A stretch of 64,000 bases of DNA, from contig RPFO01000667.1 of NCBI GenBank assembly GCA_009746045.1, positions 2,811,273 through 2,875,272 of the forward strand, in the 5' to 3' direction. The translations under genes were made by a program, and so were the position numbers. The notes beneath the pieces are model-generated. The model ran no database searches. It was not told where the DNA came from and worked only from the letters and a program-made list of their open reading frames with translations. The DNA comes from Mesostigma viride. Taxonomy: Eukaryota > Streptophyta > Mesostigmatophyceae > Mesostigmatales > Mesostigmataceae. Positions 1,034-63,556 of this stretch are shown one piece after another. The stretch's first letter is position 1; every line of letters starts with the position of its first letter.

Positions 1034-1506
1034 GAAAACTGATAAAGCATGCGCCGCCATGTCTTCCTCAATAAATTGGCTGCATTGCATGCGCACGGTG
1101 ACGGATGCAAGTCCGGTACAGTACTGGCGCGGCGCCCAGGTGCCACTGAACAGTTGTACTACAAAGAACCCATTTGTACTGATTCTTTCGACATTGTACT
1201 ACGTTTAGTCACTGTCTACTTCAACCCAGGTGGTCATACCACCTCCTAGGCAGGTTGTGCTACACCTGAACGAATCTTTACTAGCCTGAGCTAGTTTGAA
1301 CTAGTTTGAAGTAGATTGTACTACCCTGTAGTACCAATGAAGTACTTTGAACTACATCCAAGTACTTGGAAGCAGTCCAGAGGTCATTTGCAGGGACTTT
1401 CACCCTTTCCAGGAGCATTTCTCGCAGATCAGCCATGAGGCAGCGGCACCAACTCGCACTCCGCTCCCCTTAGTCGCAAATCAGGGAATCCAGATCGTAA
1501 GATCAA
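1034..1506 (-). repeat. A repeat of YR-a (473 bp)
   Basis: The repeat starts with TTGATCTTACGATC on the minus strand and ends with GTTTTC. Near-identical 473-bp copies lie at 51814-52286 and 57754-58226 in the opposite orientation, and a truncated one lies at 48420-48859. In split-direct-repeat YR elements this sequence is the left terminus and promoter-bearing leader. Short ORFs within it are translations of the repeat, not genes. Confidence 0.85.
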
Positions 1507-2067
1507 CCATCCTCCCAGCGGAGCTCGCGTCGATCGCGGGAGCGTGTGAGGGAGAGAGACCTGCGCCGAACCACCAAGGGGGTGCGTCTCCCCCGGCGAG
1601 CTTTCAAAGTGGCCTGGCGCCTGTTGGTCAAGGACCGCGACGACAGGGTGCTGCCGCTGCAGGTGCTGGATGCGCGCCAGGTCGCGCACGGGAGCCTGCA
1701 GGCCCGCTTGGCCCTTCGCAAGGAGCAGGAGGGCGTTGGGGCTGCACCGGGAGCCCCCCGCGGGTGGAAGAACAGCACGCACCATCTGGTGTGCAACAAC
1801 CTGACCTACATTCTGGATGTGGCCATCCAAGAGCTGGGGGAGGATGTGGTGACGGAGCTGGCCTGCTTCGAGTACCTGGCGCGTGTGGTCGAGGCGTTCC
1901 TCATGGTGGAGAAGACCAGCGGCTGGAACAACGGGGCGATGCACCTGCTGCCACTGGTGGAGGGCAGTACTATTGGAAGCGCAGCAGCCCGGGCAGCGCG
2001 GAAGGCGGCTCGCCAGGAGGCGGAGCTGGCATCGGCGGCGGCGGCGGCGGCCAAAAAGGACAAGTGA
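1507..2067 (+). pseudogene. Gag C-terminal region of YR-b (5' truncated by YR-a)
   Basis: This frame is open from the YR-a junction to the TGA at 2065-2067. It aligns with residues preceding the Gag stop of YR-e: the segments around TYILDVAIQELGEDVVTELACFEYLARVVEAF (written here only as positions 1804-1900) correspond to the YR-e stretch at 53830-53930. It ends in a Lys-rich tail. The pol frame overlaps the last codons in the -1 frame, the same arrangement as in YR-e. The N-terminal part of the protein is missing because of the YR-a insertion. Confidence 0.65.
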
Positions 2068-3237
2068 GGGGCAGGGGTGTGCTCCCGCTGCCAGTGAAGA
2101 TGGTCCCCCCGCTCGACCGCAGCCGCCTGCGATCCAACCGCAGGCTGCAGCGCGCTCTGCGTGCCAGAGCAAGGCTGCGGTGTCAAGAGCGGGCCACAAG
2201 GGGCCTGAACTGGCTGTGGGGCAGGACCCGGGAACGGTCCGGTGGACCGGCGGTGCAGCAGCAGGCTATTACTGCGAGCCCCTGCACCGTCGCCCAAAGG
2301 GCCGCCCTACAAGGGATGGAGGATGCTGCCCGCGTCTACAACCGCCGGCTTACCGCCGTAGCGGAGGCGACAGACACGGGGGACGCAGAGCCCGCGCCAT
2401 ACGGGCCGGGCGGTCAATACGAAATTATTGACCCGGAGAGGATGGCACTGCCAAAAGGAGGAGCTGCAGGTAGTGTCAAGCTGCTGGACTGCCTGCCGGA
2501 GGCATGGCAGAGGACGTATGAGGACATAAACAACATTCTACAAAGATGCGACGCGGAGGCGGGGGCGTGGATGCGGCGGGGCCGGGTGTCTCATGGTTGT
2601 GCAAGCGATGCGGCGTACGCACGACTGAGCATCAGGCTGGCGGAGACGCGGATGATCGAGTACAGTGAGGAGGCGCCCCCTGTGGTGAACGGCTGTTTTG
2701 CCGTCCCCAAGAAAGACCCCGGGGTTGTGGAGCCCAGCGAACGACGGCAGCGGTTTATAGGGAATATGGTGCCGTGCAACCGGCGCTTCCTCAAGCCGCC
2801 TACCTGTTACCTGCCTAACTTGGGCGAGGTCGCTGAGCTGAGTGTGGGGGCGCCATGCTATTCGGGCAAGACAGACCTTGACACCTACTATTACCGGTTC
2901 GAGGTACCTGAGAGCTGCTGGCGCCCCTATTTCTCGCTGCCCCCCGTGTGGTCCGATGAGGTCGGCCAGCTGGGACGACGGCGAAAGTTGTACCCCAGGT
3001 TCCGAGTCCTTGTCATGGGCTGGAGCCACTCGGTGGTCCTTGCACAGGTTGCCCACCTGCACTGTCTCTACGGGGCGGGAGTGCTCGATGCCAAGAGAGG
3101 GCTGTCATATCCCATGCACTTGATGGGGGTGCGCACAGTGCGCGGGGATGGCATGGACCGGCTGGAGTTGGTGGAGAGCGCAGCCAGTGCAGCGTGGCGG
3201 CTGCTGCCGGAGGATCCCCCACATCCCGCTCAGCTGG
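2052..3237 (+). CDS. Reverse transcriptase, N-terminal half (YR-b pol part 1)
   Basis: This is the start of the YR-b polyprotein, in the -1 frame relative to gag. It begins around VRGRGVLPLP, which is shared with YR-e. It carries the RT fingers and palm: PKKDPGVV (2710-2733), the first catalytic aspartate motif KTDLDTYYYRF (about 2869-2901), and VLVMGWSHSV (about 3007-3036). The frame runs intact to Q-L-V at 3237, where YR-N is inserted immediately before the M-I-D-D catalytic box found at 39389. Known role: copies the element RNA into DNA. This copy cannot make a full RT because of the insertion. Confidence 0.8.
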
Positions 3238-3944
3238 TTGATCTCCCTCGATCTGGATTCCCTGATTTGTCGGGGCGGAGGGAGCGAAGGAGGCGAGGGA
3301 CGCCGCTGGGTGACAGCACATATAAAAAATAAATAGAGCATTTAATAATTTATAATAGGCCCTGGTCTTTTATAAGGGGCAGTAGTCACAATTTATAAGG
3401 GCCCTCGAATTTAATAAGGGGCGCCAGTGTGGTGGTACGAGATCTGCCCTCTAATAGGGTGTAAGTCCGTAGGAGTAACTTGTAAACTAGTTCTAAGTAC
3501 TTGGATGTAGTTCCAAGTACTTCACTTGGCCTACAGGGTAGTACAGTCTACTTCAATCTACTTCAAACTAGTTCATTCTAGTTCAAACCAGTGCTGACGT
3601 GCTTCGGCGTAGCACTGGACGCTCAGGAGGTGAACGAACCTACTGGGGTGTAGTAGACCAAGACTAAACGTAGTACAATGTCAAAAGAATTAGTAGGGAT
3701 GGGTTCCTTGTAGTACAACTGGCCAAGGGTGCTTTTGGCGCCAAAACCAGGTGTACCGGACTTGCATCCGCCACAGTGGGCAAGTACGCTGCCACTTCGC
3801 ATGGTGTACGAATATTGTATGGGTCACGGAATTGTGTTTCGACCCGAATTAGAAGGACCTGGGCCGCCGCCGGCCCAAGTCTAAGAAAAAGTGCTGGCAT
3901 ATAACCAGCCGAGGTGTGCCTGTGCTGGTATTCGTTTTTATTAG
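3238..3944 (+). repeat. A1 repeat of YR-N (707 bp)
   Basis: Direct repeat of A2 (5651-5953 plus 38798-39201), with small differences such as a short indel near 3510-3530. It contains AT-rich segments (TATAAAAAATAAATAG) and several CAAGTACTTGG/AACTAGTTC-type short repeats, also seen in the A repeats of YR-a and YR-e although the overall sequence differs. Short ORFs here are not supported as genes. Confidence 0.8.
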
Positions 3945-27929: not shown

Positions 27930-27979
27930 TTGTAGGCTTTCTCCTCTCTTATGTTATGTCTGCTGTCGACGGGTGGTTG

Positions 27980-28000
27980 GTTGTCCCCTCCCCTCCGCAG
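27980..28000 (+). promoter_or_regulatory. Predicted splice acceptor upstream of the third ORF of Gypsy-A
   Basis: GTTGTCCCCTCCCCTCCGCAG ends at 28000, six bases before the ATG at 28006. A long pyrimidine tract plus CAG is what a subgenomic, env-like RNA would need. It would pair with the leader donor at 7049. Confidence 0.45.
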
Positions 28001-28005
28001 CCGTC

Positions 28006-28886
28006 ATGTCAGAGCCTACTCCTCCGGCTGAGAGCCCGCTGCCGTCCCTGCCCCTACCGGACCCTGAGCTGTACTTCGAGGCCCTTCCGGGCCGTTGGGT
28101 GTCCCGGTCCAGTTATCCGGGTGGAGTCGTGCAGCCGGCCCTCCAGGTCCAGCATGCGGGTTTAGTCAGGGCTGCTCTCTTCACGGTCACGTGGTACGGT
28201 CCCTCCCCTGCTGACCCGCACCAGCTTGTTTTGCACGGGTTCGATGATGCCGGGCATTGTTTGTTAGAATGTGGCTCCAGCTGTCCAGCCTTGGGACAGA
28301 TAGACGCGGTTCTCCGGTGCCCCCGGGTATTTTCCTACCTTTCTACCCCTGTGGGCCGCACCTGCCTATGGGAGGTATTCCCCTGGCTTCCGGCCGAGGG
28401 TGATGCAGAAATAGATGATAACCCCTGCGACCTTCTACGGGCAGTAGAGTTCATGGAGATAGCAGACCAGACAGCGGGCGTAGGATGGGGCGACCCTGCT
28501 CCTACGGACGCGCCGGTAGAGGCCCAGTATTCTCCTGAGTATTCGGCCTCCCCTGCGGCGTCCTCCTCTTCGGTGTCTGCGCCTTCCCCTGTCCCGTCTT
28601 CACCGAGGTCGGTCCTGTGCGCATCGGTGGAGCCTACCCCTTTGGGCTCTGGTCGTGCGCCTGATCCTCTTTCGGCGACAGTTTCTGCGATGCAGGCGCA
28701 GATCCAGTCCCTGACGGCGGCCTTCGGGGCCTTCATGGCGGCCCAGGGGCACGCCCCAGCCACGCCAGGTGGGGTGTCTGCCGCAGCTGTGCCCCCTTCC
28801 CCTTCGGTCGCCTCGGCGTCTACGGGTCCGTCTGTGCCGCGCGAGCCCTCGGCGGCTGCGGCTCCCTCTGTTGCTGCGGCTCCTAC
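28006..28886 (+). CDS. Third ORF of Gypsy-A, part 1 (unknown function)
   Basis: Starts at the ATG right after the predicted acceptor. The first ~170 residues look globular (Trp, Cys and Leu-rich; ELYFEALPGRW, GFDDAGHCLLECG, PWLPAEGD). Then comes a long Ser/Pro/Ala-rich low-complexity stretch. The copia element splits it after C-C-T-A-C (28882-28886), and it resumes at 36409 in the same frame. Together the parts would make about 743 residues. No signal peptide, fusion motif or known domain is visible. Its position between pol and 3' LTR is that of env or of the extra ORFs in some plant gypsy elements. Confidence 0.65.
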
Positions 28887-29563
28887 AGTTAACGAAACTG
28901 TGGCTGAACTGTGGTTCAGCCTGCACTGATTAATATCTACAGAGGAAGTAGTTATATTAATCAATAGGTTTACGTTGCTGGTTATGGCTACCAGCACAGA
29001 ATGCACGAAGCACGTGAGAACCGTCGCCAAAGGTGCGAGGACACAGGTGCAGGGAAAGTGGTGCTACCAAGTGGCAGCTTCCTGCTCGTTATATACTAAT
29101 TGTGACGCAGTCACATCCAGATGACTGATAGGACAGATCATCTCACAATATTGCTGTCCTTCACTCTGGACCAGCAGATCTCGACTCGTTATCCATAAAT
29201 AGTCACATCATTGTCCTGTCGCACAAGTCCTGTCACTATTTGTTACGTCTAATCAATAGCATTGAATAGACCGCAGTGTCGGAGACTAAATGTCCTATCG
29301 TACACTGTGACAAGACGTCGTATGCCACGCGTCACTTGAAGAACCACCGTAGAATCACTGAATCCAAGTAGAATGTAGTAGAACAGTATCTTGCTCATAT
29401 CTCGAGCAATACTCATCAGAATGAACCCGTTTCTGGATTGTAGTAACCGGAAGTAGAATCTCTACAAGCCAAGTAGCTTAGTAGAATAATATTGCTTGCC
29501 AGGCAATATTAACTCCAGCCCTTTCTTCTCTTTTAGAGCTTGGACATAACAGCCATATTAACT
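28887..29563 (-). repeat. 3' LTR of the copia element
   Basis: 677 bp. On the minus strand it is preceded by a purine-rich tract (AAAAGAAAGAAAGGG, 29568-29584 region) that can serve as polypurine primer. Confidence 0.9.
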
Positions 29564-33862: not shown

Positions 33863-34955
33863 GCCCAGGGAAGGCTGAGCCTGTCAGGTTGGGTTGTTAT
33901 ACCCCCTTGGCCCCTTTGCTTACGCCAGCTAGGGCAGTCCTTACGGATGTGGCCCTGCTGGTGACAGAAATAACATGTGATACGAGGTGTCCCCACCCCA
34001 GGTGGTCCCCGCTGGGACCCCACCCTGTTGAAATCAAATCTGGGACGCTGAGCCGCTGGCTGCTCCTGGGAAGGACCTCCACGACGCTTGAAGCCACTGA
34101 AGCCCTTGGCCTGGAAGCCCCCCGCTTGGAAGGCCCTGACCTTGGTGGACCATAACCGTTGGAGGGCTGCCCCCCCCATTGGTTGCCCTTGACCTTGGGA
34201 ACACTGCCCCCTGCTGCAGCTGCCACATCCACCTTATCCTTCTCCTTCTGCTTCTCCCTGGCCTTGTCTGCCTCCTTCTTGCCTCCCACATACTTGCCCC
34301 TGAAATAATCCTTGATCTTGGCCACCATAGCAGCCCAGGTGGTGCATGTACGCATGTGCACCTGCAGGTTATCCAAGGTGACCTCATCCAATCCCAGGCT
34401 ACCTAGGAAATCATCCATGGCAATCTCATCTGACACTACATACCCCTTGCCAGCACAATTGTGCCTGAGCTCCTGAAAATCCTCAAATGCCTGCAGAATC
34501 AGACCCTCAGCCTTGAAATCAATGTACTCCTTCTTCCAAAAGGAGCCATCACTAGCCCTCTTATCATCTAGGAACACCTCAAACTCAGCTATAAAAACCT
34601 CCCAGGAATCTCCATCCTCAAACTTGTCATTTACATACTTCTGCACCCTCTTGGGACACTTAAGAAGGTACTGTGACATACACAGCACCTGCAGAGGATT
34701 GTTACCATTATACAAGCCCTTATATCCCTTAAGGTGCCTAATGGTAATATCCTTATCCTTAACAGTCCAGTGCTCCTTGAGACTGGGAAGCTGGTTAAGA
34801 ATAGCAAAGCCCTCCTGGGCCTTGGCTCTGCGGGGCTGCTCTGCTGCTGCTGGACGATTAAAATTCTGATTAAAATTCTGACCCCGCAGCATTTGTTCGC
34901 CGCGTATCTCGCCGTCTTCCAAACCCTGCATGGTCGCTGCGAATGCCGATGACAA
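33856..34955 (-). pseudogene. gag: Copia Gag, one frameshift
   Basis: The start at 34955 gives a UBN2/copia-type Gag: LKGYKGLYNGNNPLQVLCM, FLGSLGLDEVTLDNLQ. It switches register at the C8 run near 34170-34177. In the second register the chain continues to a CCHC knuckle CYFCHQQGHIRKDC (about 33950-33990) and ends at 33856, where the integrase frame has already begun. It packages element RNA. The single break lies in a homopolymer, so an assembly error is possible. Confidence 0.82.
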
Positions 34956-35081
34956 CTGTCGATGCCGATGCCGATGCTGAAGAAAGAATACTGCTGGGGA
35001 ATTAATAAATTAATCCCTTAAGCTCTGGAACCAAGAAAAAAATTTTCCTGAATTAATTCTCTGTTAATTATAACAGAAAAT

Positions 35082-39201: not shown

Positions 39202-39388
39202 CCCACCCAACCCACCCTGAGGGAAGTGAGATGGCAGCATCAGCTGGCTGGGGGGGCCTGCAGATGCTTTATTCACCAATTATGCGACTTTGGTCCAAGA
39301 GTCTCTTGTGCGTAAACGTATTTTGTAAAAAATAATGTCTGGAGCCCTCAGTGATGGAGTGAACGAGTTGAGACATGCATAGGGATGG
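39202..39388 (+). repeat. B2 repeat of YR-N
   Basis: CCCACCCAACCCACCC linker, then a copy of B1 (5483-5650) ending CATAGGGATGG. YR-b coding resumes at 39389. The CCCACCC linker is also at the A2/B2 joints of YR-b and YR-e. Confidence 0.85.
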
Positions 39389-41382
39389 TCATGATCGATG
39401 ATCTGGGGGTCACCCATGGGCGGAGCGCGGAGGAGACCAACGCCGTGCTCACCAAGGCGTGCGAGGAGAGCTACGGTCCCAAGGGGTTGGTGGTCAACGA
39501 GAAGAAGGTGGAGAGAGCTGAGGAGGGGCGCCCGGTGGAAATCTTGGGGATTGAGTTCTGCCAGGACGGGTCCATGCGGCCGAGCGCGGCCCGGATGGCG
39601 GCCTTGGTGCGCGACACACAGGCAATGCTGGGGCGTGGACGGGCCACTTACCACCAACTGGCCTCGTTGCTGGGACGGTGGGTGTGGGTCCACTTGCTGC
39701 GTCGGGGTCTACTGTCCATCTGGTTTCACGCCTACCGCTTGCTGCAGCAAGTCCTGGTGCACAAGCGGGGCTGGAGCTATCGGCTGTGGGGTAGTGTAAG
39801 GGAAGAGCTCCAGGCTGCAATGGACTTGGCCCCGCTGGTGCATGCGCAGCGCGACCAGCCCCTGAGCTGCACCGTGGTGGCCACTGATGCGTCAACCCAC
39901 GGTTCTGGGGTGGTGTACAGCCGGTGGGAGGCGCCTGCGGTGCGTGGCCTGTCCAGCTGTCGGGAGCGGAAGGGCTGGAAGACGCTCTGTGTGGACTCTG
40001 AGACGGCCAGCGTGGAGCGCACAGGGGAGATTGAGCACCGAGCCATGGCAGCGGCGCAGTGGAGGACCGCTCTTGCCCACCGGTGGCTCGATCCCTCGGC
40101 CCACATCAACGAGAAGGAGATTCGTGCGGCTGTGCAAGGGATCGAGTGGGGCCTGCGCTCACAGGTTCACTGGCAGAAACGTCACGTGCGGCTGGTGGAC
40201 AATTCGGCAGTTGTCGGTGCGCTCGTCAAAGGGCGTTCGTCGTCCTACCGGCTGAACGCCTGGTGCCGCCGGGCGATCGCGCTAGGGCTGGCCAGCAACA
40301 CCCGCTACCACTGGGTGTATGTGAGGTCGGAGCGCAACCCGGCCGACGCGCCCAGTCGTGGTCGATGGGTGCGCAACCTCACTGCGGATGGCGACGTGGA
40401 GAGCAATCCGGGGCCACATGGGCGGCAGGAATTGCTGGAGGCCACTGTGCAGCCCAGCACGCTAGCTGCATATCACCGAGCGCTGAGTGCGTACGTGGAG
40501 TATGGTCAACCCCTCGCTCCCGTGGCCAAGACGGAGGCGGAAGGCGTCTTTTGTGAGTGGCTGGTCAGCGTGTATGAGGAAGGGGGAAGCCGGACCATGG
40601 TTGTGCGCGCATTATGCGGGCTGCAGCTGTACTTCCCCAACGAGATTAAGGAATGGTACGAGGCGCGTCGCTTGCTGGCCGGCTGGGCGCGACGAGTTCC
40701 CGTGCAGAGCCCTCACCCCGTCCCGTGGCAGCTACTGTACCTCGTGGCAAACATTCTTCGTGCACAAGGCTCGATATTAGCTGCCTGCTGCTGCATCATT
40801 GTTTTTCAGCAATACTTGCGCATCGGAGAAGCGTTCAAGCTTCGCGTGGGGGACGTGGCTCTGCGCGGGGACTTCCGCCTGGGGCCCAGTAACCAGGGTG
40901 CGCTGCTGCTACGCGACCCCAAGACAGCCAAGGGCCAGGCCCAGGCAGTGGTGGTTGTTGAGCCCCTTTCACTCACGTTGCTTGGCGCCCTGTGTGCTGG
41001 GCGGGCGCACGAGGAGCTGCTCTTTGGCGCACTCAGCTACAGCCGTTTCTTGCGGCGGTGGCACGCCGCCTGGGACCTCCTTGGCTTGCGGGGGATGTTT
41101 TCACCCTACAGCATGCGCCACGGGGGGGCCACCCATGACTACCTGCGCGGGGTACCAATCGCGGACATCCAAAAGCGTGGCCGGTGGCGCCAGTTTTCGT
41201 CCGTGGACCATTACGTGGGGCTCCACCGCGCCCTGCAGGTGCGGGTGCCCCAGGTGGTGTGGGACCTCGCGGGCAGACTGCCCCCCGTGACTGGCGTCGT
41301 CACTTTGGGCCATAGATTTCGGCCATACTTCGGTGAGGCGCACTCTAGCGGACACGCTAGGGCTTCACCAGCTGGAGGGTAA
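39389..41382 (+). CDS. YR-b Pol part 2: RT C-terminus, RNase H, 2A motif, tyrosine recombinase
   Basis: Begins with the RT catalytic box M-I-D-D-L-G. The RT connection follows, then an RNase H domain (VVATDASTHGSG, NEKEIRAAV, VRLVDNSAVVGAL, NPADAPSRG). Next is the 2A motif D-V-E-S-N-P-G-P (40393-40416), then a recombinase: an N-terminal SAM-like region (LAAYHRALSAYVEYG), LRIGEAFKLRVGDV with the first catalytic Arg, RDPKTAKG (Lys), YSMRHGGA (box II, Tyr in place of the usual His), KRGRWRQ and VDHYVGL with the nucleophilic Tyr. It would copy the RNA and integrate a circular DNA by site-specific recombination. The frame is intact from 39389 to the stop. Confidence 0.9.
40378..40416 (+). other. 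2A ribosome-skipping motif in YR-b
   Basis: L-T-A-D-G-D-V-E-S-N-P-G-P. It matches the 2A consensus D-(V/I)-E-x-N-P-G-P exactly and is placed between RNase H and recombinase. Ribosomes are known to skip the Gly-Pro bond at such motifs, releasing two proteins from one frame. Confidence 0.85.
41338..41364 (+). other. Hairpin upstream of B1 in YR-b
   Basis: GCGCACT then CTAGCG (41345-41350), loop GACA, CGCTAG (41355-41360), then GGC. One member of the covarying hairpin family found in all YR 3' regions of this window. Confidence 0.6.
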
Positions 41383-44645: not shown

Positions 44646-44842
44646 CTAGACGAGGGCAGGGGGCGCAGGCACACTGATCACGTGCGTGGTGCCGCCATAA
44701 TGTGCGGAAAAATAGCGAGATCTGCTGGGCAGGCCGCTGGCGATAACTTGCGAAATCCTGGGCGATGGCTGCCAAAAATTAGATCGGCGTGTTCGTCATC
44801 AAAAGGCGAGTCTATTGCAATTTACCCGACCAAATTTCATCA

Positions 44843-45494
44843 TGGATGGATGGATGGATGGATGGATGGATGGATGGATGGATGGATGGATGGATGGATG
44901 GATGGATGGATGGAGGGAGGGAGGGAGGGAGGGAGGAGGGAGGGAGGGAGGGAGGGAGGGAGGGAGGGAGGGAGGGAGGGAGGGAGGGAGGGAGGGAGGG
45001 AGGAGGGAGGGAGGGAGGGAGGGAGGAGGGGGAGGGAGGAGGGAGGGAGGGAGGGAGGGAGGGAGGAGGGAGGAGGGAGGGAGGGAGGGAGGAGGGAGGG
45101 AGGGAGGAGGGAGGGAGGGAGGGAGGGAGGGAGGGAGGGAGGGAGGGAGGGAGGAGGGAGAGGAGGGAGGGAGGGAGGGAGGGAGGGAGGAGGGAGGGAG
45201 GGAGGGAGGGAGGGAGGGAGGGAGGGAGGGAGGGAGGGAGGGAGGAGGGAGGGAGGAGGGAGGGAGGGAGGGAGGAGGGAGGGAGGGAGGAGGGAGGGAG
45301 GGAGGGAGGGAGGAGGGAGGGAGGGAGGAGGGAGGGAGGGAGGGAGGGAGGGATATGTATGGATGGATGGATGGATGGATGGATGGATGGATGGATGGAT
45401 GGATGGATGTATGTATGTATGGATGGATGGATGGATGGATGGATGGATGGATGGATGGATGGATGGATGGATGGATGGATGGATGGATGGATGG

Positions 45495-45530
<36 letters not shown>

Positions 45531-45700
45531 ATGGATGGATGGATGGATGGATGGATGGATGGATGGATGGATGGATGGATGGATGGATGGATGGATGGAT
45601 GGATGGATGGATGGATGGATGGATGGATGGATGGATGGATGGATGGATGTTCTTAATTAATTAATTAATTAATTAATTAATTAATTAATTAATTAATTAA
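44843..45700. repeat. Compound microsatellite (GATG)n-(GGGA)n-(GATG)n-(TTAA)n
   Basis: GATG runs at 44843-44910 and 45356-45650, GGGA/GGA runs at 44911-45355, TTAA at 45653-45702. The Met-Asp-Gly-Trp and Gly-Arg-Glu frames here are artefacts. The purine-only strand could form unusual DNA structures. Confidence 0.97.
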
Positions 45701-51251: not shown

Positions 51252-51813
51252 TTAGTCCTGAGATATAGGAAGGGGAGCAGTGGTTTTCACCAACTCAGTA
51301 TACCAAGAAGGAAGAGTGAGCCCCTTCTTTTGGCAATACTCCTGGACCACCTCATGGCAGTGAGTCAAGTCAGACAACCACAGCCATGTGGCAGTAGACT
51401 CTAACTCTCCTTTCCAGTGCACCTTAAACTGCAGCTGCTTGGTCCTACCCTTTCCTTTGACTCTGTGAGCCACCAGCTGTTCCACTTCATATATTCTCTC
51501 CCCCTCAGTATCCAGCTCAAATGGCAAGGGAGCTGAAAGGCGTCCTTGCAAGGTGTTGCGTTTATACAGTTTGAGCTGGACCAGGTGAAACACATTAGTC
51601 TTAAGCCTCCAGTGGGAAGGCACCTGGACTTGAACTACAGTCCCATAGTGGAAGGTGTTTATGACAGGGTAAGGTCCCAACCACAAGGGTTGCAGTTTCC
51701 TGCATTGCTCCTTTTCAGGTAGCACACGATTAGCCTCCAAGAGCACCAGGTCACCAGGAGCCACAAAGGTGTGTGTAGCCAACATCTGTTGCCAAGCATT
51801 GTTTAAATACTGG
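51252..51813 (-). CDS. pol: Gypsy-B integrase C-terminus with chromodomain
   Basis: Continues the integrase frame of 58366-62309 after YR-e. Q-Y-L-N-N-A-W-Q-Q-M leads to APGDLVLLEANRVLP, the usual gypsy integrase C-terminal strand, then NVFHLVQLKLYK, and a chromodomain (YEVEQLVAHRVKGKGR, LQFKVHWKG, then a Trp-Leu segment). It ends PLPISQD at 51252. Confidence 0.85.
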
Positions 51814-52286
51814 TTGATCTTACGATCTGGATTCCCTGATTTGCGACTAAGGGGAGCGGAGTGCGAGTCGGTGCCGCTGCCTCATGGCTGATCTGCGAGA
51901 AATGCTCCTCGAAAGGGTGAAAGTCCCTGCAACTGACCTCTGGACTGCTTCCAAGTACTTGGATGTACTTCAAAGTACTTCATTGGTACTACAGGGTAGT
52001 ACAATCTACTTCAAACTAGTTCAAACTAGCTCAGGCTAGTAAAGATTCGTTCAGGTGTAGCACAACCTGCCTAGGAGGTGGTATGACCACCTGGGTTGAA
52101 GTAGACAGTGACTAAACGTAGTACAATGTCGAAAGAATCAGTACAAGTGAGTTCTTTGTAGTACAACTGGTCAGTGGCACCTAGGCGCCGCGCCAGTACT
52201 GTACCGGACTTGCATTCGTCACCGTGCGCATGCAATGCAGCCAATTTATTGAGGAAGACATGGCGGCGCATGCTTTATCAGTTTTC
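51814..52286 (+). repeat. A1 repeat of YR-e
   Basis: 473 bp, starts TTGATCTTACGATC, ends CAGTTTTC. Direct copy at 57754-58226. Confidence 0.9.
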
Positions 52287-52376
52287 AAATTCGTTTTTCG
52301 GTTTTCTAAGCCATCTTTTGGCCGTTTTACCTCGGAATACGTCCGTTTTAAAGCTAACGACTTCCTCTTTACGAAT

Positions 52377-54118
52377 ATGATGGCTAGCGGGGATGAAAAC
52401 GCTAGCGAGACGGGGGATTTACCGCGCGGATTTGCGAGTCGTGTGGAGGAAATCTATGTGAACCATGGCAGGAACGCCTCAGCTGTCGCCTATTTTATAG
52501 CGGCAGAACTCGGCTCTGAATACCCTAAAATATTGTTGCGTAGCTCGGAAAACAAGTTACGAAGTTTGGCAGAAAAGCTTCGGATCTTTGGGTTTGAAAT
52601 CAATGGGTATGACACTCGTGAGGAGCTGGCGCAAAATATTTCAGCCAAGGTGGCGAAAATGTTAGCACAAGGTACAACAGGCATTACAAACGATGAGGAA
52701 CCGAACGGGGACTCCTCAGAGGAGGACACTGATGTCGGGGAAGCTTTGGCAGGGGCCAAAGAGGAGCAGGCGCAGGGATTTCGCCCCCCAGGTGCTAGCA
52801 CAGTTGCTGGCGCACCAGGTGCCGTTTTTCCCGCCGTTTTTGGTCATATGGCGCCTGTCGTCGGAGGGGATGGCAGGAAACAGCTTGCAAATGCAGGGAG
52901 GAGCTTGGCAAACGCGGCTGGCGCTAGTTTTGGGGGAGGCGAGGGGGTGTCTGCAGTGCCACGCTCAGGCACTTTAAAAGCGGGCGCGCGCGGGGGAGGC
53001 AAGGAGGAGAAAGCAGGTCTCCCGCGCAGTGCCAAGGGGGACGGGGCGGCCGGAATGGGACTGAGCCCCGAAATGATGGCGCAGATGAATGCCCTCATGG
53101 GGGGCTTCCAACAGCTGGGGATTGGCGGCGCCCAGGGGTTGGGAGCCGCAGTACGGGTGCCAGCACCCAGCGTGCAGGAAGGGGGCGCATGGGGGGGGCG
53201 GGGGCAGCAGGGCCCAGCCCTGCCGGGTGGACAAGCGGGCCCCATGGGTACCCGGGCACACCGACAGGCGTGGAAAGAACGCAGGGCCCAGCGTACGCTT
53301 ACCCAGGGCAGATGGGTGCAGCCTGGCCTCAGCCCTACCCACCAGCGGGTACCGCGTACGGTACCTGGGTGCCAGCGGCTGGAACCCCGTACCACATGGC
53401 GCTCGCAGCAGCCCAAGGTGGGCAGAGGAAACGGGAGAGCAAGCGGTCCAAGTGCCGGGAGTGCGGGCATCGGCACTGCCGGTGCACGTCCAGCGACAGC
53501 ACGAGCAGCGACTCGGAGGGGAGCGGGCGAGGGCGCGCGGGTGGCCGGGGCACAGGTGGGAGGTTGACCGACCTGCCAGTTACCCGCGGGGTCAACCTGC
53601 TCGAGTACCTGCCGGCGGGGCGGGCTCTCAGCGTGGTGTGGGACGTGGAAGACCACAAGTACCACCAGCGCACGGCCCCCAAGCACATGGAGACCGCCAT
53701 ACAGGGCCACAACGGCAACATGGTGGCCTGGCTGAACGTGCAAAGGGCCCCCGTGCTGCGCCAGCAGAAGGAGGGGACGGGACTTGGGTGGGCATCCAAG
53801 GAGAGGATGGAGCTGGCCCAGAACCTGTGCCACGTCTGGGATACGCTCAACAAGGAGCTCAGTCCCAACGTGTGCAGCGAGCTGGCGGGCGTGGAGTACC
53901 TGGCGCTCTGCGTGGAGGCTCTCCTGCTGGTGGAGACCAGCGGGTCTTGGAACGCGTCCGGGTACATGCTGCCCTACCGGCCGGCAGGGGGTGTCCGCAC
54001 GCGGGCGGCTCGACGAGCGCTGCGGGCACACAAGAAGGAGCGCGATGCGTTGGCGTCGGCGCGAGGAAAGGAGGACAAGGCGGAGGGAGGAGTGGCGGGC
54101 TCTTCCCAGAAGAAGTGA
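52377..54118 (+). pseudogene. Gag of YR-e, one frameshift
   Basis: Starts MMASGDENASETGDLPRG. The conserved N-terminal domain runs about 95 residues, then an acidic linker, a Gly-rich middle, a basic/Cys-His cluster (KCRECGHRHCRC, about 53449-53484), a Ser/Asp stretch, and a C-terminal folded region (HVWDTLNKELSPNVCSELAGV) ending in Lys-Lys at 54118. The register changes in a G8 run at about 53191-53199; the first register continues uselessly to 53567. The product would be the particle and RNA-binding protein. Pol starts in the -1 frame over the stop. Confidence 0.78.
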
Positions 54119-57100
54119 GAGGGCGAGGTGTATTCCCCCTCCCAGAGGTGGCCATCAAGCCCCTCGACCGCGCGCGCCTACGGTCCCGACGTAGGTATCA
54201 GCGGGCCATGCGGCGGCGGGCCCTGCTCCTGCGCAGCGCGCGAATCGTGGATGGCCTCAACTGGTTGTGGAGGGGAGCACAGGAACCGCCTGAAACGGGT
54301 CCTGTCGGTGGCATGCGGATGGCTTTGCCCGCACCTGTTGCCCAGGAGCCCGCGGGTTGCGGTACCAGCGGGGTGTCCTTAGTGACCCCCTGCACTGCGG
54401 CCCAGCAGGCGGCCCTACAAGGGCTGGAGATTGCCGCCCAGGTCCATGAGCGCCGGCTGAGAGCCGTAGCGGCAGAGGACCTGGTGCATGACGTTGAGTC
54501 TGGGCCCTATGGGCCCGACGGGCAATATGAAATAATTGCCCCGGAGAGACTTGCGCTGCCCGCGGGCGGAGTGGCGGGCAGCGTGCCGCTGATGGACTGC
54601 CTCCCCCCCAGTGGAGGGAGGTATATGGCAATATAAAAAATATTTTGAGGGAAGAGGCAGCGCAGCCAGGGCGTCGACGGCGAGTAACGCATGGCTGTGC
54701 GAGCGACACGGAGTACGCGCGCCTGAGCGTGCGGCTGGCGGAGACCGGGATGACAGAGTATAGCGAGGAGGAACCACCGGTCACCAACGGCCTGTTCGGC
54801 GTGCCCAAGCGCGATCCAGGGGTGGTGGACCCGTCAGCCCAGCGCCAGCGACTCATCTGCAACATGGTGCAGAGCAACGACAAGTTCCTCACCCCTGGCA
54901 GCTGTTACCTGCCAGATGTGGGGGCGGTGGCCGAGATGGCCGGGGGCGCGCCCAGCTACTCGAGTAAAACGGACCTGGAGACGTACTACTACCGCTTCTC
55001 TGTGCCAACGGAGTGGCGGAAGTGGTTCGCGCTGCCCCCAGTCTGGTCAGACGAGGTCGGCCAACCAGGGGAGCGCCGCCGGCTCTATCCCAGGTTCCGT
55101 GTTCTGGTGATGGGGTGGTCCCACTCGGTCCTGTTGGCGCAGGTGGCGCACATGCAGACCCTGTTCGGGCCGGGGAAGCTGAACCCCGGGCTGAGTGTGA
55201 GCGTCCCGATGCATCAGCTCGGGGTGCGCACAGTGCGTGAGGGAGGACGGGAGTGGATGGAGTTGGTGGGGGCCGCCGAGCTTGACTGGCAGCTGCTGCC
55301 CGAGGACCCTCCTCGGCCGGCGCAGTTGGTCATGATCGACGACCTGGGCACCACACACGCGCGCAGCGCAGCGGAGGCGAACGCGCTGCTGGACCGCGCA
55401 TGCACTGAGTGCTACGCGCCAGCTGGCCTGGTGGTGAATGAGAAAAAGGTCGAGCGGGCGCGGGAGGGCCAAGCTGTGGAGATCCTGGGCATCGAGTTTC
55501 ACCAAGATGGGAGCTTGTGGCCGTCGGCGAAGCGACTAGCCCTCCTCGTCCATGACACTGAGGCGGTGCTGGCCCGGGGACGAGCAAGCTACCATGAGCT
55601 GGCCTCCCTACTGGGACGCTGGGTATGGATCCAACTGCTTCGCAGGAGTCTGCTAAGCATCTGGTTCCATGCCTACAGGATGCTCCACCAAGTGCTGGCC
55701 CTCCGCAAGGGAGGACGCTTCCAACTCTGGGCAAGTGTGCGCCGGGAGCTCTGGGCGGCTGTCTGCCTGGCTCCCCTGGTGCATGCGCAGCGCAACCAGC
55801 CGCTGGACACCACCGTCGTGGCCAGTGACGCGTCGAGCCGGGGCTCCGGTGTGGTGTACGCCCGTCTGGCAGAGGCAGACGTGAAAGCTTTGTCCAACTG
55901 CCGTGAGATGAAGGGGTGGAAGACTCTGTGTGTCGGGTCGGAAGAGGTCGGTGTGGAGCGAACGGGGGAGAGGGAACATCGGGCGGTGGCGACCGCCCGC
56001 TGGCGTGTGGCGGTGAAACACCGGTGGAGGGACGCGGGTGCGCACATCAATGAGAAAGAGGCGCGCGCAGCCGTGCAGAGCCTGGAGTGGGGGCTGCGCA
56101 CGCGGGCCCGGTGGGGGCGACGGCACGTACGGCTGGTGGATAGCTCCGCCGTTCTGGGCGCACTGGTGAAGGGGCGGTCATCATCTTACCGCCTCAACAC
56201 GTGGTGCCGCCGCGCTGCCGCCCTGGGCTGTGCCAGCAACACCAGGTACCACTGGGTGTACATCCGCTCGGAGCGAAACCCCGCTGACGCGCCCAGCCGG
56301 GGCCGGTGGGTGCGGGACCTTACCGCCGATGGCGATGTGGAGAGTAACCCGGGGCCGGGAGGGCGGCAGGAGCTACTGGAGAGCACCGTGCTGCCCGCGA
56401 CCCTGCGCAGCTACCATCGCGCAGTGATCGCGTACCTTCTTTGGGCTGAGCCCTATGGTGCTGTACCGCCGGAGGAAGCGGAGAGCGTGTTCTGCGAGTG
56501 GCTCGTGTCTGTCTACGAGGATGGAGGGGGAGCAGGGCGTTCCATGTGCATGAGGGCGCTGTGTGGGCTGCAACTGTACTACCCCAGCCAAGTGCAGGGG
56601 TGGCGCGAGGCCCGCCGACTCCTGTACGGGTGGCAGCGACGCGTGCAAACCCATAGCCCCAATCCGGTGCCGTGGGAGCTGCTCTACCTGGTGGTGCAGA
56701 TCCTCCGCTGGCAGGGGGCGCCCATGGCAGCAGCCGTGTGCGTCATCACTTTCCAGCAATACCTGCGCATCGGGGAGGCCTTCAAGCTCCGAGTGGGGGA
56801 CGTGGCGCTGCGCGGCGACCGTCGCCTGGGGCAGCGAGGCCTGGGCGCGCTGCTTCTGCGGGATCCCAAGACAGCCAAGGGGGGTGCACAGGCGGTGGTG
56901 GTGCAGGACCCCCTCTCGCTGTACGTGCTCGAGCGCCTGTGCGCTGGGCGGGAGCCCGAGGAGCCCTTGTTTGGGAGCCTCAACTACAGCCAGTTCTCTC
57001 GTCGGTGGCACGCGGCGTGGGATGTTCTGGGCCTGCGGGGGATGTTTCCGCCCTACTCCATGCGACATGGTGGGGCAACGTACGACTACCTGCAGGGCGT

Positions 57101-57260
57101 TTCACTCCCAGACATCCAGAAGCGCGGGCGTTGGCGCCAGTTCAAGTCGGTGGACCACTATGTGGGCCTGCACCGTGCTCTAGCGGTGCAAGTGCCGCGG
57201 TGGGTGTGGTTGCTGGCTGAGGAGTTCCCCCCCGCTCAGTGGAGTTCACACTGGCAGTAG
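54106..57260 (+). CDS. Pol of YR-e: RT, RNase H, 2A motif, tyrosine recombinase (one frameshift)
   Basis: Begins EVRGRGVFPLP in the -1 frame relative to gag. A one-base slip in the C7 run at 54603-54609 moves it to the frame that stays open from 54645 to 57260. RT: PKRDPGVV, KTDLETYYYRF, LVMIDDLGTTH (catalytic Asp-Asp). RNase H: VVASDASSRGSG, NEKEARAAV, VRLVDSSAV, NPADAPSRG. 2A: DVESNPGP (56334-56357). Recombinase: LRIGEAFKLRVGDV, RDPKTAKG, YSMRHGGA, KRGRWRQ, VDHYVGL. Size and order match YR-b. After 2A skipping, the recombinase would be a separate ~300-residue protein starting with Pro. Confidence 0.9.
56319..56357 (+). other. 2A ribosome-skipping motif in YR-e
   Basis: Codes for the same 13 residues as YR-b 40378-40416 but differs at seven third-codon positions, all synonymous. 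It sits exactly between RNase H and recombinase. Confidence 0.88.
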
Positions 57261-57343
57261 CAAGTGTGGGGATGCGCCTGCCCCGGTCTAGGCCGGGGGG
57301 GCGCAGTATAAAACGATGCAGCTCCGTTGGAGGAGTCGGCAGG

Positions 57344-57545
57344 GCGCACTCCAGCGGACACGCTGGGGCCCTGCTGGTTTTGGGCGTCACGCCATCATCC
57401 TGATTTCCGGTTTGGCTCAACTTTGACCGTATCCTGCCTTGGACAGAGCCGGCGGGGCGCACTCTAGTGGATACACTAGGGCTCTGCGGGTACCTGCGTT
57501 GACTGGTGCAGGGGAGGCGCACTCTAGCAGCCACGCTAGGGCTTC
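57344..57545 (+). other. Three covarying hairpins upstream of B1 in YR-e
   Basis: GGGCGCACT followed by CCAGCG-GACA-CGCTGG (57351-57366), CTAGTG-GATA-CACTAG (57464-57479) and CTAGC-AGCCAC-GCTAG (57524-57539), each followed by GGGC. The paired bases change together. Confidence 0.65.
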
Positions 57546-57596
57546 CCCCTCTACAACCACTCCAGATGCGGCCGGGGACGGCCAGGTTGGAGATGC

Positions 57597-57753
57597 GGGT
57601 GTTATATGGTGGCAGCCGCCTGGGACTTGCGCACAATTTGCCAGTCTCTCGGTCTACCAAGGCCTGCAAGCGGCTTAAGCATATAATTTTGCAATAAACA
57701 AGTTCTGGTGCCTTCTCAAACAAAGTGAACCTGAAAGCATGCACAGAGGATGG
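57597..57753 (+). repeat. B1 repeat of YR-e
   Basis: GGGTGTTATATGGTGGC ... GAGGATGG. 57597-57687 is repeated at 58275-58365 (B2). The last 66 bp have no B2 counterpart. Confidence 0.85.
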
Positions 57754-58226
57754 TTGATCTTACGATCTGGATACCCTGATTTGCGACTAAGGGGAGCGGA
57801 GTGCGAGTCGGTGCCGCTGCCTCATGGCTGATCTGCGAGAAATGCTCATGGAAAGGGTGAAAGTCCCTGCAAATGACCTCTGGACTGCTTCCAAGTACTT
57901 GGATGTAGTTCAAAGTACTTCATTGGTACTACAGGGTAGTACAATCTACTTCAAACTAGTTCAAACTAGCTCAGGCTAGTAAAGATTCGTTCAGGTGTAG
58001 CACAACCTGCCTAGGAGGTGGTATGACCACCTGGGTTGAAGTAGACAGTGACTAAACGTAGTACAATGTCGAAAGAATCAGTACAAGTGAGTTCTTTGTA
58101 GTACAACTGGTCAGTGGCACCTAGGCGCCGCGCCAGTACTGTACCGGACTTGCATTCGTCACCGTGCGCATGCAATGCAGCCAATTTATTGAGGAAGACA
58201 TGGCGGCGCATGCTTTATCAGTTTTC
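57754..58226 (+). repeat. A2 repeat of YR-e
   Basis: 473 bp, about 99% identical to A1. Confidence 0.9.
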
Positions 58227-58365
58227 CCCACCCACCCACCCTCTTTTGTTTGTTTGTTTGTTTGTTGTCTCTGGGGGTGTTATATGGTGGCAGCCGCCTG
58301 GGACTTGCGCACAATTTGCCAGTCTCTCGGTCTACCAAGGCCTGCAAGCGGCTTAAGCATATAAT
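58227..58365 (+). repeat. B2 repeat of YR-e (shortened)
   Basis: CCCACCCACCCACCC linker, a (GTTT)n stretch, then the B copy ending AAGCATATAAT. Gypsy-B coding resumes at 58366. Confidence 0.8.
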
Positions 58366-61300
58366 GCATCATGCAACATCTGAGCAGCAACCATACTGTG
58401 AGCTTCCTGGAAGGATGCTATCAGCTGGTGGATAGAGGTTAGGCGTCTTCTGAAGGGGCCTTCAGCATCCCTGTCAGGTAACTCCAGGTCAAATGGAGTC
58501 AAGGGGCACTGGCCATGGCAAATGACAAATGGAGACATTCGGTGAGGAGCCAGGGGTGAGTTGTTGATGGCAAACTCTACGAAGGGAAGTTTCTTGTCCC
58601 ATTCCTTGTTATCATGGGTACAATAGTGCTTCTGGCATTCCCGTACAATGCGGTTCAGCCTCTCCACAGCCCCCGTGCTGGCACACCTGTATGCTACTCC
58701 AAAGGCCAACTTAGTGTCCAGGATGTCAAAGAAGGACTTCCAAAACCCAGACATCCACAAGGGATCCTGGTCAGTGATGATTACGCGTGGCATGCCATGC
58801 AGTCTGTACACCTCCTTCATGAACAACTCTACACACTGGGCAGCTGTGAGATGGGCATTGCAGGGGATGAGGTGGCACATTCTAGACAGCCTGTCCATCA
58901 CCACTAGTATCCTGTCATTGCCAGCATCAGAAACAGGCAAGCCACAAATGAAGTCCATGGTCACACTGATCCAGGGTCGAAGGGGAATAGGCATGGCCAT
59001 AGGAAAGATAGGCACTGCCTGAGTCCTAACCTTATTCCTTTGGCATGAGTCACAGGAAGCCACATAGGCTTTGATATCACGAAACATGCCAGGCCACCAA
59101 AACCTCTCTTGTACTTCATGGAGGAGCTTAGCATACCCAGGATGACATGCAGTCACGTCGTCATGGAAGCAATGCAACACAGTGGGAATGGCCATTTCTG
59201 GCACATAGACCTTCCTGGTTACTACATGATCTGCATCCTGGGTGTGGACATACAGGACTCCCTCCCAGTACTCCACAGGTCTGTTACCAAAGCTTCCTTC
59301 CTGAATGGCCTTAGTGGCCAGGTCCTCAGTTTTAGTGAAGGCCTTAATCACGTCCAGCAGGGCTATACTCATAGGGTTAGGCAGGACTAGCTGTTTGCCA
59401 GGTCCTAAAGGCTGCAGCTGCAGCACCTCACCCTCCTGCAGGTGACTAGTGACTAGATGCTTGGATGACAGAACATCAGCCACAGGTGTACGTGACTTCC
59501 CCTTGATCTCAGCTGCCAATCCTCTAGACTTGGTCAGCATCCCTGGCTCCAGTATCCACTTCCTGGGCCGTCCCTTCCCCCTCCTAGGATTCTCTGTGCT
59601 TGGTTGTGTAGTGAGAGTGGGCTGGCTACTAGCAGAACCCTCCCTAAGACTGCTCTGCAGTGACTGACCCCCACCCTGGACGCCTGTCGACCCTGGGACA
59701 GAGCCCTGGTCAATGAGCATCTCGTGACTAAAGCTAGCCTCTACAGGGGGTGGGCTCAGCTTGGAGGTTTGCTGGTTAGCTGCCTGTGCCCTGGTGACAG
59801 CACCACACTCTACTACAGAAACCATGGCAGCACAAATATCCAGATCCTCGTGAAATGCTCCCATCAGATCCCTTCTTCTAGAGAGGGCGTCTGGCACCAC
59901 ATTCTGTGATCCTGGGACATACTGCACAGAGAAAGGATAGAATCCCCCTAGGTACTCCATCCACCCAGCCATCCTCTTACTCATCCTACTCTGTTCTAGC
60001 ACGTGCACCAAGGGCCTGTGGTCAGTCATCAGGGTGATAGACTCTTGCCCTAGCCCATCTGTAGCACTGCTAGCCACAGAAAACTGAGCTCCCTTCAACA
60101 GATGCTCCCACTTGTGACATGCTACCACTAAACCCAGCAACTCCTGCTCGTGTACAGGGTAGTTACGTTCAGCTGAGCTCATGGTTTTAGACATGTACTC
60201 CACTGGCTGTGGTCCATAGCCATGGTCTTGCATCAGCACAGCACCTATGGCGCCTTGAGAGGCATCTGACCTAACCTGATAAGGTAGATCTGGATTGGGA
60301 CCCACTAGCACAGGGGTGGATGTGAGCTTCTGCTTCAACAGGTCAAAGGCCTGCTGACACCTATCTGTCCACTCAAACTGAACATCCTTCTTGATTAACT
60401 CAAGCAAGGGGGTGGAGATGGCAGCCATGTCAGGGATAAAACGCCTGTACCACCCCACCATGCCCAGGAAGGACTTGACATCATGTGCAGACTGCAACAC
60501 AGGCCACTCAAGGATGGCAGCAATCTTAGCATTGTCAGGTGTCATACCCAAGGAACTCAACTTGTACCCTAGGAACCCCACTTCATGCCCCCACTCCACC
60601 TTAGACCTCTTGACAGACAAGTGGTAGTGCTGGATGACCTTCAGGACCTCCTCCACGTTCTCCAGATGCTCCTTGAACGTCTTTGAGTGCACCAGGATGT
60701 CGTCCATGTAGGCCACCACGCAGGTCCTGAACACGGGTCTTGCAGGGTCACACAGGTGGGCAATGTCTTTGAACCTGGGATTCCTGAGATCAGGGGAGAT
60801 CTGAGGCAGAGAGTTCCCTGTCAGATGGCCAAAGATAGCATTCACAAACATCTGCATAGTAGCTGGGCTGTTGGAGGCCCCCATGGGCATCACAGTCCAC
60901 TGGAACTGACCCCAGGGTGTGGAGAATGCAGTTTTTGGAATGTCCTCAGTAGCTATCCTGATCTGCCAGAACGCGTGTCTAAGGTCAAACTTGGTGAAGT
61001 AAGATGATCCAGCTGTCCTCTCTAGCAGCTCATCAATCCGTGGCAAGGGATACTTGGACTTCACTGTGACCTTGTTCAGGCCTCTCAGATCAATGCACAA
61101 CCGCCATCCACCATCATGCTTGGGGACAAGCAAACACCCAGAGCTGAAAGGACTATTGGCAGGAAGAATGAGTCCAGCTTCCAACAGGCCTGTCAAGATC
61201 ACCTTCAGCTCTGCCATCTCAGCTGGCCCCATCCTGTACATGGGAACAAAGGGAGGCCTGGCACCATCCACAAGCTTGATGACATGAGTGATTGGCCCTT

Positions 61301-62309
61301 CAGGAGGGTACTGTGGCATTTTGTCCTCAAAAATGGCAGCAAACCTGTCCAAAAGGGCATCATGCAGCTTCTGCTCCTCCTCTGTGACAGCTGGTACTGG
61401 GTTCACAGCATTCACCGTGTGGCCATGAGTCTCATCAGAGGGTGAGTTAGGAACCAGCTGTAAGAGAAAGACGTGTTCCACTGGGTAAGTAGCCAGGTAA
61501 GACAAGGTGTGATTGGCAGACCATACGTGCTTAAGTAATGCAGCACGTTTCTCTTCCAGTGAAGGCACCTTGACGTCCTCCTTGGCACCTGCAACCCCTC
61601 TCCCATCATTGACAGCCTCATTAGTAGAACAGCACTCTGTGACTGGTCTTTCTCCCCCCTTAATCACTGTGGTGGCGTCCCACACTGACCCATCCTGAAA
61701 CTGCACCACCTTCTCAGACCACAAGATGGCAGGATTAGCAGACTCCAACCATGGCATCCCCAGAATCACATCAGCAGCAGTGAGTGGAATGACATCTGCT
61801 GTGACAGACAAGGTTTGACGTGAGCACACTTGAAAAAGCAGTTGCACGTAGCCAGGTGAGTTACTCTGCCTACCATCAGAATATTGGACCTTAACAGGCA
61901 CAGGGTGGGGGAGCACTGGTAGATGCAGCTCCTGCACCAAGGAAGTGGAAATGTAGTTACTTCCTGCACCTGAGTCAATCATGAAGAGACATAAAGGCTG
62001 AGCCAAAGGGACTGGCACGTTCAACAGCCTAGCCTGGAACTTCAAGAGTTGACTGGGAATAGGAGGGCCCAATGGGGTGGTGGAATCAGAGGCAACAAGT
62101 TGTTCACAGGACGGACATGCACAGCAGGCAAACCAGTTAACTCCACCGCTGGACGTAGTCCTGGGGGCTCCACTAGTTTTTTGGCAGCTCAGGAGGATGA
62201 TCTGAGACGAGCTCCCCACTGAAGGCTGCACCTGCTGATCCTCTATGCCGTCTGCCTCCCCTTCTCCCTCCTCCTCCTCTGCTAGGAGGTGCCACAGGGC
62301 GTTGACCAT
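58366..62309 (-). CDS. pol: Pol of Gypsy-B: protease, RT, RNase H, integrase core
   Basis: About 1,315 residues in one open frame. Retropepsin MIDSGAGSNYI (Asp near residue 112) with VILGMPWL near 181. RT from about residue 370: LPANSPFSSGCLLVPK, FDLRHAFWQIRI, catalytic Y-M-D-D (60699-60710). RNase H: VRSDASQGAIG, HEQELLGLVV, MTDHRPL, VPDALSRR. Integrase HHCC module (HPGYAKLLHEV .. CDSCQ) and DDE core (VTMDFICGL, ITDQDPLW, AVERLNRIV). It is cut after L-H-D-A by YR-e and continues at 51813-51252. The stop seen at 58353 is an artefact of the insertion. Confidence 0.92.
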
Positions 62310-63556
62310 CCGACGCCTGTCTTGCCTGTTGAACCCTTGGGCTGGAATGGTCCCTTGCCCGAAGCCTGGAAGTTGGGTCTAAACCCAGGCTGTGCCCTGT
62401 GGTCGCTCTGGCTCACCCCAGGAGGGAAGGTGGATGGTCTGGTGAATGGAAGAACCCCCTGAGGACCCTTGGTGTCGCTGGGAACTGGTCTCGCTTGGGG
62501 CAATCCCGTGCAAAGTGTCCCAGCTGGCCACACGTGAAACAGGCTCCTTTGGACTGCTCCATGGCACTGAGCTCCTCCATCACAGCGTTCAGCTGGTTCA
62601 GGGGCTTCTTAACAGCAGGCGCCTGGTTGCCTGCAGCAGGCTCCCACTTGAGGGAAAAGTCAGGGACACGGCACAGCGTGAGGGCATAAGACAGCACAGT
62701 ATCCCACTTCCACTCGACATAGTCGAAAGGGGAGAAATGCTTGTCAATATCCACCCTGACTTGAGGGGAAGCCCATGCAGAAACCTGTGAAGAGCTTCAG
62801 AATCAGAGCACTGGGGGATTTTGGCCCTCAGGTTGGTAAACGTCTCTACGTATTGTGGTAGTGTCAGGCCGGACTGAGTACAGTTGGCCAACGCGTCCCG
62901 GTCCAGACGGAGCTGGTCCTGGGGAAGGAGAAAACGTCGAAATGAAAGCATGAGAGATGGCAAATCCTTGCAAGTATTACCTGCCGAGGATCGTAAAAAC
63001 TCATCAAACCTGTCGGCTGCACTGTCGCTCATTCGCTGTCGAACCATCTTCTTCTGGATGTCCAGGGAAAGTCGTTCTTCCGCTCGTTTGCCGTAGTTAG
63101 CAAAGTGGATAGCGAACACATCCTGGAATCGAGTAGAGAAATGATCGAAACTGCGGTGGGTTAGATTGGTGAGCGACAGCTTGTCTACGGATTCGATTTT
63201 TGGAAATGGCGGGGCGGAACCTTGATGCGGTGGTATAGTGACGGTCACGGGGACGTCGCTGGCGGGGGTGGTGAAGGTGACCGAGGTCGTCTGCGCTGGA
63301 TCCTGCCTATCGCTATCCTGCGTCTCATTCCTCGTAGTAACTGCGGTACTATAGGTAAAACCCTTCCGTCACCCAACCGAGGAGCCTCTCTCCCCAATCC
63401 AGCAACCATGTCACGCATGGCCGCCTCCTCCTCCTCAATTCTCTGACGAAGTCTTCCCACATCCTGTTCCACCTCCTCCACCATCTTTCTATACATCGCT
63501 GCGTGTTGTTCATCGTGTAAATCTGATTTTAGCTGCTGAGAGGCGATCCGCTGCAA
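62282..63556 (-). pseudogene. gag: Gag of Gypsy-B, several frameshifts
   Basis: Pieces in order: 63556-63245, a strong coiled coil (MVEEVEQDVGRLRQRIEEEE); 63248-62760, a capsid-like region (SFDHFSTRFQDVFAIHF, FTNLRAKIPQCSDSEALHRFLHG); 62760-62500, with the CCHC knuckle CFTCGQLGHFARDC (about 62520-62561); and 62500-62282, a Pro/Gly-rich tail overlapping the pol start. Each step needs a one-base change of register. The pol frame differs from the last gag frame. The start is uncertain: an open frame at 63768-63529 (MSEVRRPSLSIG) may be the true N-terminus. Confidence 0.7.

Follow-up and report, generated by a model that had tools for sequence, protein, structure and literature searches.

A predicted 2A/StopGo peptide between the RNase H and the tyrosine recombinase of a Ngaro-like retrotransposon

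The window (the whole 64-kb stretch of DNA analysed) contains YR-e, a split-direct-repeat retrotransposon, together with its diverged relative YR-b and a truncated relative, YR-a (Table 1). The Pol ORF of YR-e bears motifs that we take to mark a reverse transcriptase (RT), an RNase H and a tyrosine recombinase (YR), and its open frame is uninterrupted through RT-RNase H, a 17-residue 2A and YR. The recombinase portion of YR-e (56358-57257) matched the Pfam family Phage_integrase below the cut-off of 27.1 bits (E=5e-5, 23.6 bits), while that of YR-b exceeded it (E=4.6e-7, 30.2 bits). RT and RNase H of YR-e returned sub-threshold Pfam matches only (RVT_1, E=0.26; DNA_pol_viral_C, E=0.14), hence these two domains were named from motif order. 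RT-RNase H and a tyrosine recombinase are joined in one YR-e element, as judged by motif order for the former and by Pfam for the latter. An upstream frame (53089-54636) meets the Pol frame at a C-run (54603-54609); programmed frameshifting at this run was considered and set aside, as its length varies among copies and frameshifting is inseparable from slippage and from homopolymer or assembly error. Elsewhere in the window, LTR-type retroelement polyproteins, read from the ORFs, lie near the YR elements (24715-29000; 30291-35009, minus strand; 58353-62378, minus strand), and 8-base tandem arrays occur at about 14972-15850 and 44770-45660. Rfam returned no match at gathering scores within the 64-kb window.

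Table 1. Coordinates of the YR elements and their predicted features within the window
Feature	Position	Strand	Details
YR-a, truncated relative	1341..3332	+	N-terminal RT part only; ends before the 2A region
YR-b ORF	39355..41382	+	C-terminal part of RT, RNase H, 2A, YR; 71% identity to YR-e
YR-b 2A module	40366..40416	+	WVRNLTADGDVESNPGP; 13-residue part at 40378-40416
YR-e split-direct-repeat retrotransposon	51811-58365	+	order A1-ORFs-B1-A2-B2
YR-e repeat A1 (left end)	51811..52286	+	98.95% identity to A2
YR-e Pol ORF	54531..57260	+	stop-to-stop, 909 aa; RT, RNase H, 2A, YR
YR-e RT motif	residues 268-271 of Pol ORF		MIDD
YR-e RNase H motifs			ASDAS 431, NEKE 507, LVDSS 535, NPAD 583
YR-e 2A/StopGo module	56307..56357	+	WVRDLTADGDVESNPGP; Pol residues 593-609, 17 residues
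Expected skip in YR-e	Gly 56352-56354 / Pro 56355-56357	+	
Predicted post-skip tyrosine recombinase of YR-e	56355..57257	+	301 aa, N-terminal Pro
YR-e recombinase boxes			LRIGE 745, DPKTAKG 778, MRHGGAT 844, KRGRW 864, HYVGL 876
YR-e repeat B1	57594..57687	+	98.9% identity to B2
YR-e repeat A2	57751..58226	+	98.95% identity to A1
YR-e repeat B2 (right end)	58272..58365	+	98.9% identity to B1

Comparison of the repeats placed the internal repeats of YR-e downstream of YR, as in Ngaro/VIPER-like elements, and A1-ORFs-B1-A2-B2 is the order given for Ngaro in the available part of PMC8547959. Only ~25 residues separate the RNase H NPAD motif from the start of YR, leaving no space for a methyltransferase, which argues for a Ngaro/VIPER-like rather than a PAT/DIRS-like element; a Pfam scan, a method that is weak on YR-e, likewise matched no methyltransferase in its four ORFs. 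By split-repeat order and methyltransferase absence, the criteria taken from the accessible passages of PMC4157794, YR-e is Ngaro/VIPER-like. In the portions of PMC8547959, PMC4157794 and PMC6681497 available to us, Ngaro and VIPER elements share with YR-e this repeat order and RT-RNase H followed by YR with no methyltransferase between; however, these portions contain no match for 2A, and the likeness is one of architecture. The PAT/Toc3/Kangaroo and DIRS1-like elements, some of them in green algae, are also YR retrotransposons, but the accessible passages of PMC4157794 and PMC3266345 describe them with a methyltransferase domain, for which no match was found in YR-e by a Pfam scan that is weak on this element.

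The preliminary description had suggested that YR-e lacks a protease. Indeed, no protease family was matched by Pfam in the four YR-e ORFs, but as the scan missed the YR-e RT as well, this result argues only weakly for a true absence. Among the genome's contigs, 12 of the 54 matches to the YR-e Pol ORF are full-length, open copies of 100% identity (rounded), suggesting that the family has been recently active. No relatives of the Pol protein (P0001) or of alignments A3 and A4 were found in the collection of viral contigs, nor any of A3 in that of prokaryotic contigs, and PDB searches gave no meaningful match. An AlphaFold model of P0001, built from 3 sequences, was discarded (mean pLDDT 31).

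The module WVRDLTADGDVESNPGP directly follows the RNase H motif NPADAPSR and precedes the recombinase of ~300 aa, the junction stretch of the ORF reading ...NPADAPSRGRWVRDLTADGDVESNPGPGGRQELLEST.... Its 13 core residues (LTADGDVESNPGP) occupy exactly 56319-56357, and the perfect DVESNPGP that had been noted there, at the RNase H/recombinase boundary, is present. According to the accessible text of PMC12846837, the 2A core is (D/G/C/N)(V/I)ExNPGP, and StopGo motif 4 is marked upstream by WV(R/K)DLTx[acidic]G and favours p12=D and p15=S. When compared with this description, the YR-e module matches motif 4 at every position, upstream WVRDLTADG included, and the cores of YR-e and YR-b (DVESNPGP) and of a further family, g (DVEANPGP), are all canonical. 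The motif 4 member tested showed nearly 100% activity in rabbit reticulocyte lysate (RRL; PMC12846837, section 10, in the part available), the assays in this source having used mammalian lysate and not that of the host bearing YR-e. The octamer DVESNPGP, p12=D, p15=S and upstream WVRDLTADG are common to YR-e and the viral motif 4 2A of the same passages; the latter, however, comes from a survey of virus ORFs, whereas the YR-e 2A sits in a DNA-integrated YR retrotransposon at the RNase H/YR junction, and neither recombinase nor DIRS nor transpos- is matched in the main text of PMC12846837, as far as it was accessible.

Within the window, cores of the form D[VI]ExNPGP occur in all six frames only in YR-e and YR-b; an NPGP at 37400 (minus strand) stands alone, without the rest of the 2A core. 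YR-b encodes the same 13 residues as YR-e, and our re-count agreed with the earlier one that 7 of the 13 codons differ, all by silent third-base changes; in the upstream part of the module, N replaces D at one place. These silent changes had been read as a sign of selection on the peptide. However, 20 of the 632 windows of 13 aa are fully identical between YR-e and YR-b, carrying 4-11 codon changes, hence the argument is weak alone and was set aside as proof of selection. More stringent tests come from the genome-wide counts, the sequence context and the five lineages described below.

The size of the assembly (440 Mb) and the LTR-type elements among the ORFs of the window point to a eukaryotic host, whose ribosomes would translate the YR-e frame. 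Across the 440-Mb genome, D[VI]ExNPGP was found at 177 places, compared with 0 for the reversed pattern. Places were listed one by one for the first 100 of the 177 (contigs up to C1591), and the sequence was read for 30 of the 177. At 29 of these 30, [DN]LTxDG lies directly upstream, as against 0 of 16 viral-contig hits, the latter being hits to the Val form of the core only, near-duplicates included, with ~7 distinct sequences among them. The RNase H/YR junction accounts for 24 of the 30 (L072 and L074 in broken copies), while the remaining 6 belong to two other, non-YR contexts. The 13-codon pattern gave 0 matches in the collection of viral contigs and 0 in that of prokaryotic contigs. As loci L047-L076 were picked by the 2A pattern, they are uninformative on loss of the motif, which was followed instead in the junction-covering segments of Pol-ORF matches (33 segments, from the first 30 loci of the 54 matches). 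NPGP is retained in 30 of these 33 segments; loss from most intact relatives, named in the preliminary description as an outcome that would speak against the 2A, is not what was found. The three segments missing NPGP are a broken fragment (L014), a fragment with a P->L change (L024) and a copy with a small deletion (L017), in which NPGP is altered though the frame is otherwise long and open.

The g family (L077) is about half identical to YR-e and keeps the 2A at the RNase H/YR junction. In the alignment of e, b and g, 11 columns of the 13-aa block are invariant; 5 of 432 windows attain this level, the four besides the block itself overlapping a single RNase H block (543-546). Its variable columns are exactly the two x positions of LTxDGDVExNPGP, and indels of 7 aa and 3 aa lie on either side of the module. 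Five YR lineages (e, b, g, the L082 type and the L083 type) keep the module at the junction at pairwise identities of 44-73%, and the 2A persists where e or b is compared with g or h (see below), at 44-52%; as all five share the module by homology, their agreement does not amount to five independent origins. On these alignments, the predicted 2A of each of the five YR lineages is either canonical or a variant that has already been reported.

A search with the g protein returned at least 68 matches, at least 13 of them at 92-100% and at least 55 at 60-64%, the latter constituting type h. The h type is scattered over at least 55 places in the genome, at least 39 of which share the same score (777.1 bits), with many open frames of 995 aa. 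On the contigs covered by the listing of D[VI]ExNPGP (the first 100 of 177 places), none of the h places is among those listed. Nonetheless, the lineage was dropped as counter-evidence to 2A use, as all three h copies read (L082, L083 and L084; 3 of the 55) encode W[IV]PDLTRCGDVHPNPGP at the RNase H/YR junction, with the core DVHPNPGP, a non-canonical p14=His variant. L084 nearly duplicates L082 (99%), and L083 stands apart as a sublineage of its own at 72-73%. The h type has Cys at p10, where motif 4 has an acidic residue, which counts against the 2A reading for this type. With h added to the alignment (L084 omitted as a 99% near-copy of L082), 9 of the 13 columns of the block are invariant, a level that 14 of 432 windows reach and that is high but not extreme. 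In the accessible part of PMC12846837, p14=His is a rare natural variant with >95% activity in its natural context; the h lineage offers a natural, high-copy test of this core, so far reported as rare.

The module also occurs outside YR elements. A non-YR frame (FINLRRPRGYWRALSRKN...KRDLTKDGDVESNPGPSHEAAAPPPHV) with the full 2A module was found at L048, L056, L057, L069, L070 and L078, the last of which (1482-3014, minus strand) runs into tandem repeats. A second non-YR context (QFINIRRSRRTWRALSRKN ... WEKDLTADGDVEANPGPCSHKS) was found at L055 and L079 (2840-4603, minus strand) and has the stretch FIN[LI]RRxRxxWRALSRKN in common with the L048 type. The core DVEPNPGP, in yet another codon type, lies at G000:C1579:7372027-7372049 (minus strand). 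The form G[VI]ExNPGP was found at 2 places versus 1 in the control: L081 is a changed g copy, and L080 (G000:C1454:74677-74699, minus strand) encodes WVRNVTEEGVEPNPGP in a 263-aa open frame, resembling StopGo motif 1 with p12=G. Given 2 hits versus 1 in the control, the L080 sequence could be a chance match.

Among the first 100 of the 177 places, the 67 e- and b-type copies are distributed over 14 contigs in one cluster per contig, each spanning at most 113 kb; on contig C1, which is 14.3 Mb long, the cluster spans 40 kb. Matches to P0001 on the contig of the window (C2133) span 143 kb. All 21 g-type copies among the same 100 places are scattered outside the e/b spans, two of them within ~75-140 kb of one. 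The pattern of one e/b cluster per contig resembles centromeric retrotransposon clusters, making these sites candidate centromeres.

Taken as a whole, these data make it very probable that YR-e is a Ngaro-like YR retrotransposon with a genuine 2A/StopGo between RNase H and YR, from which release of the recombinase is predicted. Co-translational release, as put forward in the preliminary description, is favoured by the position of the module at the junction, its StopGo upstream context and its conservation in diverged lineages, and one YR-e message probably yields two separate enzymes. Going by the match to the assayed class, the ribosome would fail to form the Gly-Pro bond between NPG and P; RT-RNase H would be released with a ...NPG tail, and translation would continue to produce a Pro-initiated recombinase of ~301 residues. 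The freed YR may then act as a recombinase on element DNA and target, and RT-RNase H would carry out reverse transcription. Loss of ribosomes at the skip would hold YR at or below the level of RT, and two enzymes would be obtained from one ORF without a protease.

A related but distinct possibility is that the 2A serves mainly as a termination valve, with many ribosomes stopping after NPG, so that RT-RNase H is made in excess over the recombinase and the separation of the two is of secondary importance. Small amounts of YR would presumably suffice if each cDNA recombines once, and the accessible part of PMC5009743 refers to a StopGo site under selection to end translation in a significant fraction of ribosomes; nevertheless, we think this unlikely, as the StopGo activity of the motif 4 member assayed was near-complete according to the available text of PMC12846837. 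It is quite improbable that NPGP is instead a coincidence and the protein stays fused, the peptide serving as a conserved linker with a structural role or forming the last part of RNase H. The module does adjoin a conserved stretch, RSERNPADAPSRGRWVR, which is itself identical between e and b, and the altered NPGP of the long open copy L017 would fit such a linker; but among e, b and g the 13-aa block varies only where the 2A consensus leaves the residue free, the same module recurs with other flanks in the L048- and L055-type loci, and a coincidence sits poorly with 177 places versus 0 in the reversed control.

We see hardly any room for an unselected origin within a single young family, whether by chance or as a by-product of homogenisation among copies. 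Many e copies are near-identical and hence not independent, and fully identical 13-aa windows are not unusual when e and b are compared (20 of 632, as above). Against this stand the 13 codons of the module, seven of which differ silently between e and b, its upkeep at 44-52% identity of e and b to g and h, and the lack of any 13-codon match in the prokaryotic and viral collections.

A StopGo module within a retroelement protein is not without parallel. The 2A-like sequences of non-LTR retrotransposons, elements that use target-primed reverse transcription, were reportedly the subject of work by Heras in 2006 and by Odon in 2013. Such elements resemble YR-e in having proteins with an internal 2A, but the product that would be released in YR-e is a tyrosine recombinase. 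In the accessible part of PMC4981915, 2A-like sequences are known in L1Tc and other non-LTR retrotransposons (APE-type elements). Our literature search, the scope of which left aside Rao 2025 on cellular and viral 2As, Odon 2013 and Luke 2014, found no paper linking 2A with YR elements, and the available portions of PMC6681497, PMC3266345, PMC4157794, PMC8547959 and PMC5009743 contain no match for a 2A at YR. The passages on YR retrotransposons available to us likewise give no account of how RT and recombinase are separated without an evident protease.

On balance, we lean towards a broader picture in which a radiation of YR retrotransposons uses StopGo instead of a protease, with one high-copy lineage relying on DVHPNPGP, the module reused in other frames, and e and b residing in one centromere-like cluster per contig. 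StopGo at the RNase H/YR junction would provide a direct and testable answer to how these elements separate RT and recombinase without an evident protease. It would also add a further kind of mobile element to the RNA viruses and non-LTR elements in which 2A is known, and multigene expression could make use of the 2As that occur naturally in such a host.
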